A stretch of 22,172 bases of DNA from positions 1-22,172 of the IMG/VR virus record IMGVR_UViG_3300037245_001388. The stretch is one strand, 5' to 3'. Each line of letters begins with the position of its first letter. Within the stretch, counting starts at the first letter, position 1. Below the pieces are notes generated by a model. That model was not told the DNA's origin and did no database searches. It was given only the letters and a program-made list of their open reading frames with translations. Of the stretch, positions 1-22,172 are shown piece by piece. The stretch is from a virus. Position numbers and translations under genes: made by a program.

Positions 1-207
1 TGGCCCCATGATACAGTCGTCCTCTAAGGGATAGCCAGCATCTATAAGCCCCTGCTGAACCTCGCACTGGGTCGGGATAGTAAAAGAGGCATCCTTGCCT
101 ATCCCGAGTTCCTTCTCACCATCCCTGATACCTTGGCCTTCATAGCACATAAGTATAACGAATACGAAGAAGAATATGATGGCTATTGTGATTATCTGGT
201 ATTTCAT
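1..207 (-). CDS. Membrane-anchored protein, possible peptidoglycan-binding domain (partial)
   Basis: Incomplete gene running off the left edge; 69 codons are visible. Residues about 4-20 are almost wholly hydrophobic (ITIAIIFFFVFVILM), a signal anchor or uncleaved signal peptide, followed by a Cys. Residues about 46-69 (start CEVQQGLIDAGY, end DDCIMGP) resemble the first half of a PG_binding_1 repeat, whose usual pattern is a Q-x-x-L-x-x-x-G-Y helix followed by D-G-I-x-G-P. If so, the protein sits in the inner membrane and binds cell-wall glycan, as in some phage lysis or entry-exclusion proteins. Only half the motif is present, so the domain call is tentative. The start has an AAGGAG site 8 bases upstream and overlaps the previous stop as ATGA. 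It is the last visible gene of the leftward operon. Confidence 0.6.
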   Translation of the reverse strand, partial: MKYQIITIAIIFFFVFVILMCYEGQGIRDGEKELGIGKDASFTIPTQCEVQQGLIDAGYPLEDDCIMGP

Positions 208-554
208 TTGGTTATCTCCTTACGGGCTTCAATCAATGCCTCAAATGCTGCCGTTATGCTTTCGCAGTCCTCCTTGTACCGAGGCACTTCATCAGCAAGC
301 GCCATATCCATCTTTTTGTGGCCCTCGTAAAAGTCTTTTATGTGGGGTTCTTTGAACATCGCATCAATCGCCCCCACCAACTCATCTACAAGGGGGTTTG
401 TGCAGTCAGCCTGTAGTCTATGCTGTTCAAGTTCTTCGCCTATACAAGCAAAGCACAGAACAGGTCTTTCGCAGTTAGAACGAAGCTCTATCGCAGCATT
501 GTATTCTTCCATACTGATAAAATTATTACACTTAGAACAATTCCCAAAACTCAT
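204..554 (-). CDS. Small zinc-knuckle phage protein, unknown function
   Basis: A 116-residue protein with an N-terminal CSKC pair (residues 6-9) and a second CFAC pair (residues 34-37), spaced like a four-Cys zinc knuckle. The remaining 75 residues look helical and acidic and end in a Lys/Glu-rich helix. It is preceded by an AAAGGAG site and overlaps both neighbours by ATGA junctions, so it is translated in a chain with the genes at 1-207 and 551-808. I do not recognise the family. The Cys pairs suggest a nucleic-acid or protein adaptor, but no specific role can be given. Confidence 0.8.
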   Translation of the reverse strand: MSFGNCSKCNNFISMEEYNAAIELRSNCERPVLCFACIGEELEQHRLQADCTNPLVDELVGAIDAMFKEPHIKDFYEGHKKMDMALADEVPRYKEDCESITAAFEALIEARKEITK

Positions 555-808
555 CTCTCAACTCCTTTCAGCTTACATATGTCGTCAATTAAGTCATTCA
601 CTCCAACCATTACAAACTCCTCTAGGGTCTGGTTAGTGTCTTCGTCTAGCGAGTCATTACAAGATTGATACACCGGAAACCCAAGAAATAATACACTATA
701 GTCACTCCCTACTGATTCTATAGTTGCAGGGTAGAATTCCTCATTGCCTGTTCGTTCATAGAAATCTTCATTAAGTCTAGATACAATTCGTTCTTCTAAT
801 TCACTCAT
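551..808 (-). CDS. Small acidic hypothetical phage protein
   Basis: An 85-residue acidic protein beginning MSELEERIVSR. The longer reading frame starts at a TTG (821-823), but that codon lies inside the AAAGGGA ribosome binding site, so the ATG at 806-808, 6 bases downstream of that site, is the real start. Its middle has a short hydrophobic strand-like stretch (YSVLFLGFPVY) and its C-terminus a helix with several Asp/Glu. It overlaps the next gene by ATGA. No family recognised. The 151 bases upstream carry a strong GC-rich hairpin at 853-892. Confidence 0.75.
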   Translation of the reverse strand: MSELEERIVSRLNEDFYERTGNEEFYPATIESVGSDYSVLFLGFPVYQSCNDSLDEDTNQTLEEFVMVGVNDLIDDICKLKGVER

Positions 809-852
809 ATCATTCCCTTTCAACTGTCAAATATTACTTGTCGGTTCAATAT

Positions 853-892
853 AGCCCCGGCGGCATGTCATCGCGTCACGACCGCCGAGGCT
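853..892 (-). other. GC-rich intergenic hairpin
   Basis: Bases 853-863 and 882-892 are complementary over 11 positions; on the transcribed minus strand the single non-Watson-Crick position is a U-G wobble. The loop is 18 bases. It lies between the genes at 960-1511 and 551-808, about 45 bases before the latter's start, with no T-tract after it, so it looks like an RNA-stabilising or processing hairpin more than an intrinsic terminator. The 3' arm carries the GCCGAGG motif that recurs in other gaps of this window. The rest of the 809-959 gap shows nothing else I can support. Confidence 0.5.
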
Positions 893-959
893 GGGCCATT
901 CTTATCCCTCCCAGCCGGAGCCGCCCATGCGACCCCGACCTTCGGAGGATGGGAGTGTC

Positions 960-1511
960 TTATTTTGCCTTGTCTTTCTGATAGTCGAAGTAGCGGGTGA
1001 ACTTATCGGGTTTGACCATAGTTTTTCGCAATTCCTTTTCGGTAATACGGATAGTATCGCGCACGGTAACGGCTTCGAGGTTCCTATTTCCATCACCTAA
1101 ACCAATTAGCATTACTTTTTTATTAGCCACCCGAGATAACAAGAACTTACTCCCGTCTTCAAACTGAAACCGATCAGCCACCGAATAAACCACCTCACAC
1201 TCGGCGATCTGCTGCTTGAGGTCGGCTATTGTGGCGTCAAATACATTGTTGCTCTTGTCCTGGTCTTTGACTGCCTGTGCTAATGCTGATTTCTTATCTT
1301 CTAAACTCATACTGTCTTCCTTTCTTATGTAAATTGTATCGTTAGGCTGGCATTGCTCTGGCTCCCAGTCTGTTCCGTCAGCCCAACAGCATCTTTCGTT
1401 TCTTACTATTTTCTTTAAATGAGGCTTATGTACACCATTGTCGGCATAAAAACCAAGCCAAAACCCCACCCCTTCCGGCAAATCTTTGAATTTAATCTTT
1501 GTGTATTCCAT
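960..1511 (-). CDS. Two-part hypothetical phage protein with an internal ribosome binding site
   Basis: A 183-residue protein. Residues 1-66 are a compact aromatic and Cys-containing segment (start MEYTKIKFKDLPEG). From Met68 (MSLEDKKSALAQ) a second segment begins with a Lys/Gln-rich helix and continues into a strand-rich C-terminal half. The Met68 codon at 1308-1310 is preceded by AAAGGA with proper spacing, so a 116-residue product could start there. This looks like two adjacent small genes joined in frame, or one gene with a nested start. The main start has an AGGAG site 7-8 bases upstream. It follows the SSB-like gene after a 95-base gap. No family recognised for either half. Confidence 0.75.
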   Translation of the reverse strand: MEYTKIKFKDLPEGVGFWLGFYADNGVHKPHLKKIVRNERCCWADGTDWEPEQCQPNDTIYIRKEDSMSLEDKKSALAQAVKDQDKSNNVFDATIADLKQQIAECEVVYSVADRFQFEDGSKFLLSRVANKKVMLIGLGDGNRNLEAVTVRDTIRITEKELRKTMVKPDKFTRYFDYQKDKAK

Positions 1512-1530
1512 GTTATGCTCCTGTTAAAAT

Positions 1531-1600
1531 ATACCCAGCTACCGCAACCTTTTCCTCTGAGCAAACTGCTAGGGCGCCAGCTAACCCGTTCACTGGGTAT
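1531..1600 (-). other. 70-base intergenic element closed by an 8-bp stem
   Basis: Bases 1531-1538 and 1593-1600 pair perfectly (ATACCCAG with CTGGGTAT) and enclose 54 bases holding smaller hairpins, including GCA-GTT-TGC flanked by CCT/AGG on the minus strand. It fills most of the gap between the SSB-like gene and the gene at 960-1511. The size recalls a tRNA, but there is no T-arm consensus and no CCA end, so it is not a tRNA. It may stabilise or regulate the message. Confidence 0.35.
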
Positions 1601-1606
1601 TGTTGG

Positions 1607-1939
1607 TTAGAAGGGTACGTCTCCGTCTGGGTCGCCCTCAGAGAAGTCTCTGGTGTCCTGTGGCGGAGGCTCGCTACCCCAATCGTCACCACCAGACTCC
1701 TTCTTCGCTTCCGGCTTCCATGTATTAAGTTGCGGGTAAACCTTCGTCTCGTCCTTAGAGAGTAGTATATCGAAATTTACCCATCCATCATTGTGATTCT
1801 TTCGTAGGAACTCTACTAGCTTTGAGCAGTTTATTGATGCCCTGCTTAAAACAAACTTGGGCGTTCCATCGGGTTTCTCGCCGTATGGCCCTACGAACTT
1901 GAAAAACATTCCATCTACAAATACCTTATCTTCTGCCAT
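1607..1939 (-). CDS. SSB-like protein with acidic C-terminal tail
   Basis: A 110-residue protein (start MAEDKVFVDGMFFK). The last 25 residues are acidic and disordered and end in EGDPDGDVPF, close to the DDDIPF tip by which bacterial and phage single-stranded-DNA-binding proteins recruit partners. The body (about 1-75) has the strand-rich, aromatic pattern expected of a small OB-type or annealing-accessory fold, but I see no decisive SSB signature. The frame is open further upstream, but ATG 1937-1939 has an AGGGAG site 9 bases away and begins just after the stop of the annealing-protein gene (1941-1943). That pairing strongly suggests a recombination/replication accessory role. Shorter than a typical SSB. 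Confidence 0.7.
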   Translation of the reverse strand: MAEDKVFVDGMFFKFVGPYGEKPDGTPKFVLSRASINCSKLVEFLRKNHNDGWVNFDILLSKDETKVYPQLNTWKPEAKKESGGDDWGSEPPPQDTRDFSEGDPDGDVPF

Positions 1940-1940
1940 T

Positions 1941-2405
1941 TTACCATACTCCCTGTTCTTGATTATCATTCATTGAGTTCTTACTGTCGTTGCATTTACC
2001 AGCATACACGTCCGCTGCAACACCTATCATCTTCAATGCCGTACCTGTGGCATCGGTTATCGCCATCTTGTAGCACTCATCGCTGGCATAAGGCCCTTTC
2101 TTTTCCAGCTTAACCAGGAAAGACCCACCAACGCCATGAACCGGTTGCGACCATTCATCGCCGTTTTTATAGGTAACTGATACATGAGCGAATACTAATA
2201 CCTGCCCGCCGAAACCCTGCTCTGTCCAGAGCCTCTCAATATTAACTGACCAGCCTATACCGCAAGGCCCGAATACATCTGTCATTATCTCGTACCGCCA
2301 CTGAGGGCTAATATCAGACATCCCCTTGAGCCGACCGGCCTTTATTGTTCTCAGGGCATCTTGGGGAGGGGTTTTAAGTTTATCCCATATTTCTTTGTTT
2401 TGCAT
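1941..2405 (-). CDS. Probable Rad52-superfamily single-strand annealing protein
   Basis: A 154-residue protein. Its pattern is that of a large phage family distantly related to Rad52: an N-terminal WDKLKTPPQDALRTI helix, then residues 36-60 with a QWRYEIMTDVFGPCGIGW core, strands around 66-80, a GGSF turn, and a conserved C-terminal helix (about 109-135) containing DECYKMAITDATGTALK and GVAADVYAG. Members anneal complementary single strands during phage recombination and replication fork repair. The next gene downstream is SSB-like, the usual partner. No recombination exonuclease is visible here; it may lie outside. An AAAGGA site precedes the ATG by 7 bases. The exact subfamily is uncertain. 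Confidence 0.7.
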   Translation of the reverse strand: MQNKEIWDKLKTPPQDALRTIKAGRLKGMSDISPQWRYEIMTDVFGPCGIGWSVNIERLWTEQGFGGQVLVFAHVSVTYKNGDEWSQPVHGVGGSFLVKLEKKGPYASDECYKMAITDATGTALKMIGVAADVYAGKCNDSKNSMNDNQEQGVW

Positions 2406-2440
2406 CTTACTATCCTTTCAAAGTTATTGTTAACTGTTAT

Positions 2441-2548
2441 TCATTCTTCTTCGCCTTTACAGTCCATGCACATATCTCGCTCAAAGTCGTAGTCGTGGTA
2501 GTCAGTGTCAATGTAGGCTTCGCATTTAGAACAGGTCATAACGCTCAT
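2441..2548 (-). CDS. 35-residue zinc-ribbon microprotein
   Basis: A short gene whose ATG overlaps the stop of the upstream gene as ATGA (2545-2548). It encodes 35 residues with two CxxC pairs, CSKC at 6-9 and CMDC at 27-30, separated by an Asp/Tyr-rich loop, and ends in GEEE. Two CxxC pairs in so short a product imply a single bound zinc. A GGGAG site lies about 5 bases upstream. The coupling, RBS and Cys pattern make it a real gene despite its size. Function unknown. Confidence 0.7.
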   Translation of the reverse strand: MSVMTCSKCEAYIDTDYHDYDFERDMCMDCKGEEE

Positions 2549-2910
2549 TCTTCTTCTCCCGCTAATACATCTTCGCTAAATTTAAAGTTCTCGCATTGGT
2601 CGTGGTCCCTACGGCAATACTCGTACTTGTCTTGTTCATTTTCCTCTTCATAACCCCTGTATAATCGTGCTTTACGCGAGAAGAATGTGGTTAAATCTTT
2701 CTTGCACCTAGAGAACTCTCGGTCTAGAGAACCAGGAACAAAGCACCACTCGCAATCCTCGCAGTAATGCTTACCCGTCAAACACCCCTCACACACCCCG
2801 TCAGTCATGCCCCTGGTCGGTTGCTCTACCCTGCACTTACGGCACTTGGCGTAGGCTTCGGGGATAGCGTCCAGCTTGGCGTCGTACTCTCTTTGTTCTT
2901 TGTCTGCCAT
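2545..2910 (-). CDS. Cys-rich zinc-binding hypothetical protein
   Basis: A 121-residue protein with an N-terminal charged helix, then CRKC and CEGC pairs forming one zinc ribbon, then a second cluster CEDCEWC with later Cys residues around RCKKD, YCRRD and QCENF. Two metal sites are likely. Of two in-frame ATGs, the one at 2908-2910 is chosen: the AAGGAG site is 7 bases from it but only 1 base from the outer ATG at 2914-2916. It is coupled to the 35-residue gene downstream by ATGA. The upstream gap carries several hairpins (2929-2962, 3014-3085). Function unknown; probably an early host-takeover or nucleic-acid-binding protein. Confidence 0.75.
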   Translation of the reverse strand: MADKEQREYDAKLDAIPEAYAKCRKCRVEQPTRGMTDGVCEGCLTGKHYCEDCEWCFVPGSLDREFSRCKKDLTTFFSRKARLYRGYEEENEQDKYEYCRRDHDQCENFKFSEDVLAGEEE

Positions 2911-2928
2911 TGTCATACTCCTTAATAG

Positions 2929-2962
2929 TAGCCCCGACCCGTAGGAGGTCAGGCCGAGGCTA
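2929..2962 (-). other. Hairpin in leader of the 2545-2910 gene
   Basis: Bases 2929-2936 pair with 2955-2962 over 8 positions with one G-U wobble on the transcribed strand, and GACC/GGTC form a competing inner helix. Its 3' end lies about 12 bases before the ribosome binding site of the gene at 2545-2910. Like the hairpin at 853-892, it contains the AGCCTCG / CGGGGCT arms (minus strand). A role in mRNA stability or translation control is possible. Confidence 0.4.
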
Positions 2963-3013
2963 TGTTTCTACTCACCAAAGGTACGCCGAGGCGTGGCGAG
3001 CGTGTTAATTAGC

Positions 3014-3085
3014 GGGGTAGACCGGATAGCCTTGTTACTGCCTAGGTAAGCACGTCCGATTCGCCAGACCTAAAGCTACTACCCC
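3014..3085 (-). other. 72-base three-way-junction RNA candidate
   Basis: Bases 3014-3020 (GGGGTAG) pair with 3079-3085 (CTACCCC), continued by 3027-3033 with 3072-3078 (7 bp, one wobble) after a 6-base bulge. Inside on the minus strand are two hairpins: GTCTG/CGGAC with a 6-base loop and TTAC/GTAA with a 7-base loop. The result is a tRNA-sized three-way junction. It lacks a T-arm consensus and CCA, so I do not call it a tRNA. It sits in the 221-base gap between the genes at 3132-3497 and 2545-2910, where no ORF is supported. Confidence 0.45.
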
Positions 3086-3131
3086 ATATTCGGTTTTAAA
3101 GAGCTATTCTGCTTTAGAGAAGTTAAGCAGC

Positions 3132-3497
3132 TTAATCCAAAACTTTCCCCGTATCAGGGCATATCAAAGCCATCTCCTTGTCAACACGGGTACGCTTGCC
3201 GGTGGTGGCGTTGTAGAGCCATGCTGTGCCTGCTGGGGGAGTGAATCCTAACTCTTTTAGATCAACTCTCTCTTCTTTGCAAGTACCACAATTACAACGC
3301 CCAACCAAATCTATACAGCCAAGTCGCCCTATTGATTGCTTATCCCGCAATACACAGCGAATACCAACGGCCCTAGCTGAATAAAACTCGACACAGCCTA
3401 CAAACTTAGCGATACCAATGTTCGGGTTCCAGATTTCTATTCTATCTGAATCACTGTCTCTCGTTATGTAAACTTCTTTGTAATTTCCTGTGTTCAT
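3132..3497 (-). CDS. Hypothetical phage protein with CNCGTC motif
   Basis: A 121-residue protein beginning MNTGNYKEVYITRDSDSD. The first 60 residues look like a small beta-rich domain (WNPNIGIAKFVGCVEFY). The centre holds a GRCNCGTCKEE motif that may bind metal with Cys49/Cys60-type partners. The C-terminal half has a PPAGTAWLYNATTGKRTRVD stretch resembling a small beta-hairpin unit. An AGGAG site lies 9 bases upstream. It follows the two-helix membrane protein within the leftward operon. Family not recognised. Confidence 0.75.
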   Translation of the reverse strand: MNTGNYKEVYITRDSDSDRIEIWNPNIGIAKFVGCVEFYSARAVGIRCVLRDKQSIGRLGCIDLVGRCNCGTCKEERVDLKELGFTPPAGTAWLYNATTGKRTRVDKEMALICPDTGKVLD

Positions 3498-3520
3498 CTT
3501 TCATTACTCCTAAAGGGGGG

Positions 3521-3676
3521 TTAGAGAATCCACTGGCAAGCAATGAATCCGGTGAGGGCAAAGGCTAAGGCCATGAATTGCGATGCCGATATAGATTTGC
3601 CATTAGCTGTCTTGCAAGCAATGGATATACCGAACATCAACGATAAAAACAAACATACTAGCTTAATAATAATCAT
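3521..3676 (-). CDS. 51-residue two-helix membrane protein
   Basis: A 51-residue protein with two hydrophobic segments: residues 2-20 (MIIIKLVCLFLSLMFGISIA) and about 33-50 (FMALAFALTGFIACQWIL), separated by a short polar hinge (CKTANGKSISAS). This is a helical hairpin in the inner membrane. The ATG at 3674-3676 has an AGGAG site 9 bases upstream; an ATG nearer the site hits a stop at once. Size and topology fit small phage membrane effectors such as holin-like or superinfection-exclusion proteins, but its early-operon position gives no specific role. Confidence 0.65.
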   Translation of the reverse strand: MIIIKLVCLFLSLMFGISIACKTANGKSISASQFMALAFALTGFIACQWIL

Positions 3677-3701
3677 AATCTCATGCTCCTAAAAAGGTTA
3701 G

Positions 3702-3899
3702 TTAGCCTGCTGCGTTCTGTTCAAGCCGGTCGAGAGCCTGCTCAACGGCGTATATCTTAGCATCACCAGCATCAACGTTGCCATCAGCATAGTGCTTGTA
3801 GCCTTGATAGCCTGATTCTTGGACAATGTCAAAGACACTGAATCCGCCTGCGGCTTGGCGATCTACTATTTTTGTTCTTCGGTCTTCTGGTGATGTCAT
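3702..3899 (-). CDS. First gene of leftward operon, small hypothetical protein
   Basis: A 65-residue soluble protein (start MTSPEDRRTKIVDRQAAGGF). The AAAGGGA site lies 6 bases before the ATG. It is the first gene after the leftward promoter at 3939-3967, with a leader of about 35 bases, so it should be among the earliest leftward products. The C-terminal helix (DAKIYAVEQALDRLEQNAAG) is amphipathic. Family not recognised. Confidence 0.75.
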   Translation of the reverse strand: MTSPEDRRTKIVDRQAAGGFSVFDIVQESGYQGYKHYADGNVDAGDAKIYAVEQALDRLEQNAAG

Positions 3900-3967: not shown

Positions 3968-4037
3968 ACTTAATTTCGTAATATTATTCAAATAGATATT
4001 AAACAAGCCCCCACGCCCCAATAAAGCCGGTTTAGCA

Positions 4038-4047
4038 GAAATATTTA
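4038..4047 (+). promoter_or_regulatory. Shared upstream motif, copy 1
   Basis: GC-A-GAAATATTTA in a CCCxAATAAxxCC context, repeated at 4920-4929 in GC-G-GAAATATTTA with the same flanking pattern. AAATATTT is self-complementary, as expected of a dimeric regulator site. The distances to the following -35 boxes are 19 and 29 bases, about one helical turn apart. Confidence 0.4.
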
Positions 4048-4066
4048 TTATGGGCAGGGATTGGGC

Positions 4067-4095
4067 TTGACTTATCGCCGGTTATGTGTTATTGT
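4067..4095 (+). promoter_or_regulatory. Rightward early promoter 1
   Basis: TTGACT (4067-4072), a 17-base spacer and TATTGT (4090-4095). TATAAC at 4095-4100 is an alternative -10 at non-ideal spacing. An AT-rich palindrome-centred motif, GAAATATTTA (4038-4047), lies 19 bases upstream. The same motif precedes promoter 2 at 4920-4929, which suggests a shared operator or UP-type element. Confidence 0.5.
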
Positions 4096-4148
4096 ATAAC
4101 TTTAAGGAACACTGTATTTAGATGATTTCATTTAAGGAGGTGTGCCAT

Positions 4149-4208
4149 GTGACGGGACTAAACCCCCAAGAAAGTGAAGAATATGGAAGATCGCCGAATA
4201 CAATCTAA
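4149..4208 (+). CDS. 19-codon leader ORF behind a perfect Shine-Dalgarno
   Basis: The 10-base sequence TAAGGAGGTG (4133-4142) matches the full anti-Shine-Dalgarno and is the strongest site in the window. The best-placed ATG (4147-4149) is followed at once by TGA, a start-stop pair. The overlapping GTG at 4149-4151 opens a 19-residue frame (start MTGLNPQES, end RSPNTI) that ends at 4208, 6 bases before the arm of the terminator hairpin at 4215-4267. A ribosome on this ORF would cover that arm. This is most likely a leader peptide for attenuation. The last residues, GRSPNTI, also recall a helix-turn-helix recognition helix cut short, so a decayed DNA-binding gene is an alternative. Confidence 0.5.
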   Translation: MTGLNPQESEEYGRSPNTI

Positions 4209-4214
4209 AGAAAC

Positions 4215-4267
4215 AAATAGCTCAATGCAGTTGTTCTGGCGAACTTCCCCTGTGTTGAGCTATTTTT
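4215..4267 (+). terminator. Intrinsic-terminator hairpin in leader 1
   Basis: Bases 4215-4230 pair with 4250-4265 over 16 positions (two G-U wobbles), with GTTC/GAAC closing a small inner loop, and the 3' arm runs into a T-tract ending at 4267. It ends 13 bases before the ATG of the gene at 4281, so if it always worked it would silence the whole operon. This placement implies conditional termination. Confidence 0.6.
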
Positions 4268-4280
4268 ATGGAGTAAAATA

Positions 4281-4601
4281 ATGGATTACTGGAAAGAATG
4301 TATATCAGAGGCACTGGACGAGGCTAAGGTAGAAGCCACGGCCGACCAGATAACCTCTATTGCCAGTGCAGTTGAGGGCGCACATGATAATCATGGCCTT
4401 TATACTGGCGATGACGTTGCGGACGCTAACTATAATTCATCTAAAGATGATGAGGTTAAGAATCTTAAAGATCAGCTTGAGAAAGAACAAGGTAAGCGAG
4501 GTTGTCCCATTTGTAACGGTAGGGGTTATTCTGTTATTTCCGTTGGCTCTCATTCTTCTGAGCATACATGCCCTAACTGTAACGGCGATGGTAAATTGTA
4601 A
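4281..4601 (+). CDS. Conserved phage protein with DnaJ-like CxxCxGxG zinc ribbon
   Basis: A 106-residue protein. The N-terminal part (MDYWKECISEALDEAKVEAT...EGAHDNHGLYTGDDVA) is a helical segment typical of a widespread phage hypothetical family. A Lys/Glu-rich coiled-coil-like linker (about 55-72) follows. The C-terminus holds two DnaJ-type repeats, CPICNGRGY and CPNCNGDGK, which together bind one zinc. The family is often encoded early in tailed phages; its function is not established, to my knowledge. GGAG lies 7 bases before the ATG. It is the first gene after the leader-1 terminator. Confidence 0.85.
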   Translation: MDYWKECISEALDEAKVEATADQITSIASAVEGAHDNHGLYTGDDVADANYNSSKDDEVKNLKDQLEKEQGKRGCPICNGRGYSVISVGSHSSEHTCPNCNGDGKL

Positions 4602-4610
4602 CTAACCCCT

Positions 4611-4665
4611 ATGCCGAGTGGCCCAGAGCCAGCGGTAGCCCGTGCTGCGGGAGTAGCCTCGGCAT
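4611..4665 (+). other. Intergenic hairpin element upstream of 4686 gene
   Basis: ATGCCGAG (4611-4618) pairs perfectly with CTCGGCAT (4658-4665). Inside, CCCG/CGGG (4639-4642 with 4648-4651) forms a second stem. The element ends about 10 bases before the AAAGGA site of the next gene. It carries the recurrent GCCGAG/CTCGGC motif on both arms. No T-tract follows, so it is unlikely to be a terminator. Confidence 0.45.
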
Positions 4666-4685
4666 AATTGAAAGGACATAGAAAG

Positions 4686-4907
4686 ATGAGCTTACCTTAC
4701 TGCAATAAATGTGGTACTTGGCACAAAAAAGGGTTTAAATGCACCCCTGTCTCAGAAACTTGTGACAATTGCCTGTGCGACCCCGGCTGTAAGCTGGCAA
4801 AAATTAAAGGCCGTCTGGGCTGTGACAGCTTTAGTATTAAGCACTCCGTAAGGTCGAAAAGCACAAGAGCGTACCTTGAACACTTAGACCTCCCCCGCCC
4901 TAAATAA
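4686..4907 (+). CDS. Small Cys-rich protein
   Basis: A 73-residue protein with nine Cys: CNKC at 6-9, one in KGFKC, the cluster CDNCLCDPGC, and one in LGC. This pattern suggests two zinc sites. The longer frame starts with a TTG inside the ribosome binding region; ATG 4686-4688 has AAAGGA 9 bases upstream and is preferred. The C-terminal 25 residues are basic (KHSVRSKSTRAY). Family not recognised. Its downstream gap contains promoter 2 and leader 2. Confidence 0.75.
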   Translation: MSLPYCNKCGTWHKKGFKCTPVSETCDNCLCDPGCKLAKIKGRLGCDSFSIKHSVRSKSTRAYLEHLDLPRPK

Positions 4908-4919
4908 CCCCCTGCGGCG

Positions 4920-4929
4920 GAAATATTTA
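4920..4929 (+). promoter_or_regulatory. Shared upstream motif, copy 2
   Basis: Second copy of the GAAATATTTA element described at 4038-4047, here 29 bases before the -35 box of promoter 2 and just past the end of the Cys-rich gene. Confidence 0.4.
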
Positions 4930-4958
4930 AAGTATTTTCGGGAAATTGGAAGATTTTG

Positions 4959-4988
4959 TTGGACTTTGGGGCGGGAGCAGTGTATATT
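4959..4988 (+). promoter_or_regulatory. Rightward early promoter 2
   Basis: TTGGAC (4959-4964), an 18-base spacer and TATATT (4983-4988), with further AT-rich sequence (TATAAAT) after it. Transcription would start around 4995, so hairpin 1 of leader 2 (from 4999) would form at the very 5' end of the message. Confidence 0.5.
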
Positions 4989-4998
4989 ATAAATACGA

Positions 4999-5077
4999 TA
5001 CCCGTGGAAGTACAATGATAATCAACACCAAAGTTCACTAACCACGCTTTCACGGGTAAGGTAAGTGGACTTTTTTT
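4999..5077 (+). promoter_or_regulatory. Leader 2: pseudoknot-type attenuator
   Basis: Two interlocking helices are visible. Helix 1 pairs 4999-5010 with 5047-5058 (12 bp, one wobble). Helix 2 pairs 5030-5039, inside the loop of helix 1, with 5064-5073 (10 bp, one wobble), and is followed by T7 (5071-5077): an intrinsic terminator. The two helices can form a pseudoknot or compete. An 8-codon ORF (5015-5041, MIINTKVH, weak GGAAG site) covers the 5' arm of the terminator exactly, so a translating ribosome would block termination. The first gene starts 13 bases after the T-tract, as in leader 1. Whether it senses translation, a metabolite or a protein cannot be told. Confidence 0.55.
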
Positions 5078-5089
5078 ATGGAATAAGAC

Positions 5090-5305
5090 ATGAACCATTC
5101 AAGAACATTGTCAGGCTGGATAAACGAAGCTCATAAAGCAAAGACTCCGGAAGACCTTGCTATTGCAACGGCTATGGCAAACAAGGCTATCAACGACACC
5201 AAGGCTCTATATAAGGCCTATGGCATAGAACCTCCCAAGTCTGATCCTGAAGTCACTCTAAGGCACTTGCGGGGGCTAAGGGCGGCTCTTGAGGGAATGG
5301 TATAA
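5090..5305 (+). CDS. Small helical hypothetical protein
   Basis: A 71-residue helical protein (start MNHSRTLSGWINEAHKAK), rich in Ala and Lys, with a central AMANKAINDTKALYKAYG helix. It is the first gene after the leader-2 terminator. The ribosome binding site (GGAATAAG) is weak, consistent with controlled expression. Its stop TAA overlaps the next ATG as TAATG. Family not recognised. Confidence 0.7.
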   Translation: MNHSRTLSGWINEAHKAKTPEDLAIATAMANKAINDTKALYKAYGIEPPKSDPEVTLRHLRGLRAALEGMV

Positions 5306-5559: not shown

Positions 5560-5714
5560 AAAAACACCTCCGCAACATTAGGCGGGAGTTGGTTATTTTC
5601 CTCTTATTGATTGGATATAATGGTCATAGGGAGAGGCTTGAGACTGATACTGAAATCCTCGTGCGTAGATTACGTGAAATACTACCCGCGGAAGGGAAAT
5701 GGGAAAGAAGATGA
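5556..5714 (+). CDS. 52-residue basic protein with hydrophobic segment
   Basis: A short gene with ATGA coupling to the gene before and, again by ATGA (5711-5714), to the gene after. It encodes a Lys/Arg-rich N-terminus, one hydrophobic stretch (ELVIFLLLIGY, residues 11-21) and an amphipathic Arg/Glu helix. The hydrophobic stretch is short for a membrane span, so a peripheral or small single-pass protein is possible. Coupling on both sides argues that it is real. Function unknown. Confidence 0.6.
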   Translation: MKKHLRNIRRELVIFLLLIGYNGHRERLETDTEILVRRLREILPAEGKWERR

Positions 5715-13689: not shown

Positions 13690-13718
13690 ACTATACACTC
13701 TATCGGTTAACTTGTCAA
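13690..13718 (-). promoter_or_regulatory. Leftward promoter 2
   Basis: Minus strand: TTGACA (13718-13713), 17-base spacer, TATAGT (13695-13690; five of six consensus). Best promoter in the window. Back to back with the rightward promoter at 13789-13817, with about 70 bases between the -35 boxes. Confidence 0.75.
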
Positions 13719-21317: not shown

Positions 21318-22172
21318 ATGTGGTCAGCAACGTTACCAGAAGGATATGAGTCAAGGAAGTGCAGATACAGGGTTAATACCCTATGCAGAGGTACTGGACT
21401 TGACCTAAGTGCAAATGAAGAAAAAATCCAAGAAAATGCTATTGGTGTTGGGAAAAGCGGAAGGGCAGTCGATTTACAACTCGACCTGTCTGCCAACGAT
21501 TCCCTCGGCATTTTCTCGGATGGCTTCTTTGATTATGTTTATGACGCTCACCAGCTTGGCAATTTCCTCTGCACCGAAGCAACGCTTCAGGAGTGGTGGA
21601 GAGTTGTCAAGCCGGGTGGGTATCTTGTTCTTTACGAGCAGGATAAAGAGTATTATCCTCATGCGGGAACTCCAGGTGCAGATAAAGCAAGGCGTAAAGA
21701 TTTATTCTGGGAAGACGCTTGGGAGGTTGTTGAGTCGTTTGGTAATGCTGAAAAGGTATCCGCTTCAAGGCATAATGACTCAAATGAGTACTCGTGGCAG
21801 TTGGTTATCAGAAAGATGTCTCAAGTGACGACTAATCCAAAAGAAATCTTAGAAGACGACAAACTTGAAGGCCAAGTTGCGTTCCCAAGGGCTAAAAAGT
21901 CCGACAAGGAAGTATTGGTAATCAGGTATGGTGCGCTTGGAGATTCTTTATGGGTTACGCCTGTCCTGAAGAAGTTGAAGGAAGATGGGTATTATGTTGT
22001 AATGAACTGTACGATATACGGTGCGCAAGTTCTAAAACACAACCCGAATATAGATGAGTTCATTATACAAGAGAGTGGCACTTCGGCTCCGTATAGCGAA
22101 AAAGGGCAGTACTGGGAAGAAATTTCCAAGGGATTCGAGAAGGTCATAAACCTTACTCAATCAGTAGAAGGG
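21318..22172 (+). CDS. Methyltransferase-like / GT9 glycosyltransferase fusion (partial)
   Basis: Runs off the right edge; 285 codons visible. Residues 1-165 resemble a class I SAM methyltransferase (Methyltransf_11 type): LPEGYESRKCRYRVN, an altered motif I (CRGTGLDLSAN, lacking the usual DxGCG), LQLDLSAN, FDYVYDAHQL, and EWWRVVKPGGYLVLYEQD (92-109) with the post-motif III KPGG turn. A charged linker (168-197) follows. From 198, VLVIRYGALGDSLWVTPVLKKLKEDGY and HNPNIDEFI match the start of GT9 (ADP-heptose:LPS heptosyltransferase) GT-B enzymes. The AAGAGA site is weak. The SAM site looks degenerate, so the N-terminal part may no longer catalyse. Likely role: sugar modification of a phage or host structure. 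Confidence 0.8.
   Translation, partial: MWSATLPEGYESRKCRYRVNTLCRGTGLDLSANEEKIQENAIGVGKSGRAVDLQLDLSANDSLGIFSDGFFDYVYDAHQLGNFLCTEATLQEWWRVVKPGGYLVLYEQDKEYYPHAGTPGADKARRKDLFWEDAWEVVESFGNAEKVSASRHNDSNEYSWQLVIRKMSQVTTNPKEILEDDKLEGQVAFPRAKKSDKEVLVIRYGALGDSLWVTPVLKKLKEDGYYVVMNCTIYGAQVLKHNPNIDEFIIQESGTSAPYSEKGQYWEEISKGFEKVINLTQSVEG

Follow-up and report, generated by a model that had tools for sequence, protein, structure and literature searches.

What is a terminator-like hairpin doing between a promoter and the first gene behind it, and why would a phage build this arrangement twice in one operon? The window, by which we mean the whole stretch of DNA analysed, is a fragment, a virus record of 22,172 bases. 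Leftward genes occupy 1-3899, among them one for a Rad52-family annealing protein and one for what, by reading of its sequence, is a putative SSB-like protein; from 4281 small genes form a rightward operon, and right of 13,735 come the late genes (terminase, portal, capsid). The gene adjoining the capsid gene (21318-22172) appears by eye to join a part resembling a methyltransferase to one resembling a heptosyltransferase (VLVIRYGALGDSLW), and it is conserved in relatives (77% in L011). All features of the two units described below, and their genes, lie on the plus strand. Behind the first unit come a gene for a protein of 106 aa with CxxC...CxxC motifs (4281-4601), assigned to phrog_27975, a family annotated 'unknown function', and a second gene of 73 aa without a family (4686-4907), while the second unit precedes a gene of 71 aa (5090-5305) with no accepted family match and no relatives of its protein in viral contigs. 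A sequence-only reading had proposed that the two leaders share one architecture suited to conditional termination of early genes, and it is this proposal that we followed up.

The flanks of the two units do match, as had been claimed. There are exactly two copies of the motif GAAATATTTA, at 4038-4047 and 4920-4929, each at the end of a 38-nt direct repeat (4010-4047 and 4892-4929) with 71% identity between the units, an alignment score equalled in 1 of 500 dinucleotide shuffles. The 3' junctions of the units are also similar, with 2 of 500 shuffles as good. Because the similarity covers the upstream flanks beyond the motif as well as the 3' junctions, units 1 and 2 are probably paralogs. The sigma70-like promoters are present too, TTGACT-17-TATTGT with a TG before the -10 in unit 1 (4067-4095) and TGGACT-17-TATATT in unit 2 (4960-4988), but each is a 9/12 match, weak when taken alone, unremarkable by score and common by chance, with 39 such matches found in the window vs 32 expected. 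Both promoters are flanked by imperfect inverted repeats (4000-4070 and 4885-4984; CAAGCCC..GGGCTTG and CCCCGCCC..GGGGCGGG), which are possible operators. The strongest promoter match of the window, TTGACA-17-TATAGT on the minus strand at 13690-13718, leads the leftward operon, and the leader behind it is too short for such a unit.

Both units also carry the claimed hairpin and T-tract. In unit 1 the 5' arm of the terminator-like stem, called b (AAATAGCTCAA, 4215-4225, extendable to 4230), pairs with b' at 4255-4265, which runs into UUUUU at 4263-4267 (4255-4267 together); in unit 2, b (AAAGTTCACT, 5030-5039) pairs with b' at 5064-5073, and a U7 tract follows at 5071-5077 (5064-5077 together). 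By sequence form, then, an intrinsic terminator lies between the promoter and the first gene in both units, that of unit 1 having just five U's on an A-U-rich stem base. With loops of 24-29 nt, both hairpins escape a simple terminator scan, which allows loops of 8 or less. The ATG had been placed 13 bases after the T-tract, which is right for unit 1, but the distance in unit 2 is 12. The context at the ATG was not confirmed as distinctive: TTTATGGAnTAAnA has exactly two occurrences in the window, but TTTTTATGGARTAA..ATG is frequent in phage contigs, with at least 120 matches, many of them behind an ordinary compact terminator. The T-tract/TTTATGGAnTAA and TTTATGGA contexts are thus a common phage gene boundary, in which a terminator abuts the Shine-Dalgarno sequence (SD). 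This raises the question of whether the units are anything more than ordinary boundaries, where transcription from upstream ends at a terminator set against the next SD.

What distinguishes the units from such boundaries is a feature absent from the earlier reading and statistically the strongest of all: in each, the terminator loop holds an arm of 11-12 nt, a', complementary to a segment of the upstream leader, a, that ends 19 nt before the 5' arm of the terminator. In unit 1, arm a (GGAAGATCGCC, 4185-4195) lies 83 nt from the proposed start and forms 10 of 11 pairs with a' (GGCGAACTTCC, 4238-4248); in unit 2, arm a (TACCCGTGGAAG, 4999-5010) lies about 5 nt from where the RNA should begin and pairs with a' (CTTTCACGGGTA, 5047-5058) at 12 of 12 positions, including one G-U. 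As the order of the arms is a-b-a'-b', the two stems, S1 (a:a') and S2 (b:b'), interlock. When both strands of the window were scanned for long-loop terminators first and then for complements of their loops, units 1 and 2 ranked first and second. Block-wise dinucleotide shuffles (500) held a mean of 0.028 equally good sites per window, 14 of them containing one and none two, a figure to be taken as indicative rather than as a clean P-value, the threshold having been set after both units were seen. The four arms and their rarity by chance are direct results of computation, as are the near-equal energies and the recurrence described below, and we consider it very probable that the units are real structured RNA elements. 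An ordinary boundary with chance complementarity shares with them the U-tract fused to TATGGAGTAA and ATG, and it is favoured by how commonly TTTTTATGGARTAA..ATG follows a terminator across phage contigs. However, ordinary examples have short, GC-rich hairpins whose loops lack an upstream complement, 0.028 interlocked sites are expected against the two seen, and the plan recurs in two other phage contigs, L045 and L172; moreover, with its proposed promoter ahead of the terminator, a unit would stop its own transcript. We regard this explanation as the least probable of those considered.

Comparing the folds in which one stem or the other is forced suggests a switch. Unit 1 reaches -39.4 kcal/mol with S1 only and -42.2 kcal/mol with S2 only, favouring the terminator, vs -20.2 and -17.3 kcal/mol in unit 2, favouring S1; in each unit less than 3 kcal/mol separates the alternatives, but the stem preferred, and with it the predicted default state, is not the same in the two. 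Both units thus possess what an attenuator needs, a competing upstream pairing of similar stability, and in folds of growing prefixes S1 forms first in both. The geometry is alike in units 1 and 2, L045 and L172 (S1 of 11-12 nt; loops L1 17-23, L2 7-12 and L3 5-6 nt, with arm boundaries drawn by eye), and from these loops and an S1 of about one helical turn we estimate that a pseudoknot holding S1 and S2 together is sterically possible, the stems being not strictly exclusive. Across the same four leaders no arm pairs better with a foreign partner than with its own, S1 scores being 23-30 for matched and 6-13 for mismatched arms; trans pairing between units 1 and 2 was rejected, as their arms match their own partners only. 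The leaders have no ligand-like core in common, and no RNA core sequence is common to units 1 and 2. A sequence one mismatch away from arm a of unit 2 (TACCCGCGGAAG) is found at 5682-5693, in the downstream coding region.

We infer promoter use, termination and the direction of the switch along the following lines. RNA polymerase would start at the sigma70-like promoter and make a short leader, of about 165 nt in unit 1 and 84 nt in unit 2, laid out as arms a, b, a' and b', U-tract, SD and the ATG of the first gene. Together with the U-tract, the b:b' stem would act as an intrinsic terminator whose loop of 24-29 nt contains a', open to pairing with the upstream arm a. The a:a' stem would be complete before b' is made and may trap b, favouring read-through; alternatively, a:a' and b:b' may form a pseudoknot together and change the efficiency of termination. 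The timing of b:b' formation at the U-tract would decide between termination and read-through into the early genes. How much leader is terminated relative to the mRNA made by read-through would depend on a signal at arm a, which could be translation, a protein, a ligand or another RNA. That the units act as conditional terminators seems to us somewhat better than an even bet, and we would give about the same credence to the fuller description of both as pseudoknotted, bistable transcription attenuators.

A very short ORF had been listed among the components of the plan, a claim that found no support. Unit 1 has a possible 28-codon ORF (4122-4208), with an overlapping start-stop ATG-TGA (4147-4152) inside it behind AAGGAGG, and unit 2 a possible 8-codon ORF (5015-5041) that overlaps arm b. 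The two differ in their position with respect to the stems, 63% and 19% of shuffled leaders (units 1 and 2) contain an SD-led short ORF, and the leaders of L045 and L172 have none. Among these leaders we found no conserved leader ORF covering a competing arm, as ribosome-mediated attenuation would have it. In unit 2 the leader could be translated, but translation cannot account for both units, and leader-peptide attenuation was rejected as their common mechanism.

The sequence-only reading had called the device phage-specific. By terminase, portal or capsid the relatives of the window are L045, L034, L046, L011 and a 42-kb record, G001, although the window's own early operon was found in none of the contigs retrieved, and orthologs of its first gene (L040-L042) are sited without such a leader. 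One relative, L045 (terminase 77%, portal 68%), has the plan: its leader heads an early-type operon running away from the late genes. The promoter there is TTGATT-17-GATAAT, arm a lies about 5 nt from the point at which the RNA is expected to start, S1 has 12 pairs and S2 up to 17 positions, and U6, SD and ATG follow. The other example, L172, a phage in which just two other genes of the window could be recognised, shows TTGACT-17-TATATT, S1 of 11 pairs, U8, GGAGG and ATG. In all examples the stems are directly followed by U-tracts of 5-8 U. A clear unit is lacking in G001, a complete relative. In G001, beside the 3' end of the integrase gene (L043:7050-7140), there are long interlocked inverted repeats with unit-like spacing (S1 14 nt, S2 10 nt or more); these were not counted, having no good U-tract and no gene behind, and may represent an attachment site or else a structured RNA.

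A wider scan required a promoter within 45 nt upstream of arm a and covered 2,569 U-tract/SD/start sites in 2.8 Mb of loci, many of them picked by homology or by the TTTTTATGG pattern rather than as a random phage sample. It returned 6 sites at the stricter threshold, against 0.0 in shuffles, and 9 at the looser one, against 0.4; unit 1 lies outside this count, its promoter being farther from arm a. Not all of these matches are convincing (L203, for example, resembles coding sequence). Among the scan matches in other phages some are coding or of low complexity, and L044, L155, L183, L009, L001 and L041, which look like repeats, GC-rich or coding sequence, were not counted. Two contigs share a homologous leader (L147:2140-2268 and L119:8429-8549), about 91% identical over 123 nt, that precedes different replication-type genes in each, and between their S1 stems a G-C pair is exchanged for A-U, a compensatory change, with two more such changes in an internal hairpin. 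This leader is a candidate new RNA family; in 369 genomes of the Methylobacter class no leader homologous to that of L147 was found, only one 26-nt match. A csrA-like gene behind a terminator was also seen in a viral contig (L121:1005-1092), where the loop GTGTGACAG is complementary to an upstream CTGTCACA, and L173 has a CTGTCAC/GTGACAG pair similar to that of L121. The plan recurs, but the sequences do not, and to call it phage-specific was too narrow. The annotated phage collection held no sequence homologs of the window's leaders, and covariation for its units is limited to the two paralogs because no leader of homologous sequence was found. Rfam gave no match for the whole window at the gathering score, for 3980-5120 at E up to 5, or for L045, L172, L147 and L119. 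Taken together, the structure statistics, the near-equal alternative folds, the paralogous flanks and the recurrence in a relative and in other phages support the proposal of two leaders of the same architecture before early-type genes, built as if for conditional termination.

It had further been stated that no described phage system with exactly this layout was known, which is only half right. The order of promoter, structured RNA, intrinsic terminator and gene is in fact that of type III toxin-antitoxin and AbiF loci (PMC5086642, PMC12373285). In both the type III loci (ToxIN/AbiQ, TenpIN, CptIN), of which a pseudoknotted RNA is also a feature, and AbiF (RCd22-abiF), these elements stand as they do here, but the units have neither the RNA repeats nor a toxin or Abi protein, and there are two copies per operon with different arms. 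Membership of type III was rejected, as the leaders contain no tandem RNA repeats of about 34-50 nt and no ToxN/AbiQ/TenpN/CptN-like toxin lies downstream. The layout does lend some weight to a second reading, in which the short terminated RNA is itself the product that matters, binding a protein or another RNA, and in which the terminator merely holds the downstream gene at a low, fixed read-through, as in those loci: each unit has its own promoter, a structured RNA of about 80-170 nt, an intrinsic terminator, a short gap and a small gene. We consider this reading unlikely, though the next best after the attenuator, as there are no tandem repeats, no toxin or defence family match among the downstream proteins and no common core sequence in the two leaders; in addition, every case has a gene directly behind it with the SD beside the U-tract, which suggests control in cis.

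Attenuators of the trp and pT181 type resemble the units in their alternative hairpins, in a terminator with U-tract before the first gene and in an upstream arm able to interfere with it. In contrast to them, the units form their stems from four separate interlocking arms (a:a', b:b') with no shared arm, have no reliable leader peptide, and show no antisense promoter at 9/12 or better on the minus strand within either leader, a threshold that would miss weak promoters. The put RNAs of phage HK022 are elements of early transcripts, present in twin copies per genome and concerned with termination, and in these respects they are alike. They are antiterminators acting through RNA polymerase on distant terminators, whereas the units contain their own; no HK022 site is among the scan matches listed. 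A pseudoknot in the leader of T4 gene 32 nucleates the autoregulatory protein and lies, as the proposed one of the units would, at the 5' end of a phage mRNA upstream of an AU-rich SD region, but that leader has no terminator, and the genes behind the units are not known ssDNA-binding proteins. Akin to it is a third reading, ranked below the RNA module and rather improbable, that the pseudoknot and the U-rich stretch before the SD control translation or protect the 5' end of the mRNA, termination being negligible. The stem end lies just 5-7 nt upstream of the SD, in unit 2 and L045 arm a stands at the very 5' end, and a U-rich stretch in front of an SD can help ribosome binding. Yet in every example a strong stem runs straight into 5-8 U's, the signature of a terminator, and the SD takes no part in any fold up to the U-tract.

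With the attenuator as the preferred reading of the two units, a broader and more tentative proposal can be put forth, one that we hold to be possible but short of probable: the units may belong to an undescribed, sequence-divergent class of phage cis-regulatory RNA that recurs across unrelated phages, in which an upstream arm and an 11-12-nt segment of the terminator loop would make a pseudoknotted conditional terminator set against the SD of an early gene. Such a class would have been missed so far because its geometry is conserved rather than its sequence, and searches based on sequence would be blind to a switch of which only the interlocked geometry is kept. The plan itself supplies a rule for searching: an arm a complementary to a terminator loop, followed by a U-tract, an SD and an ATG. 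If the proposal is true, phages of several lineages gate their early or replication genes by a compact RNA switch.
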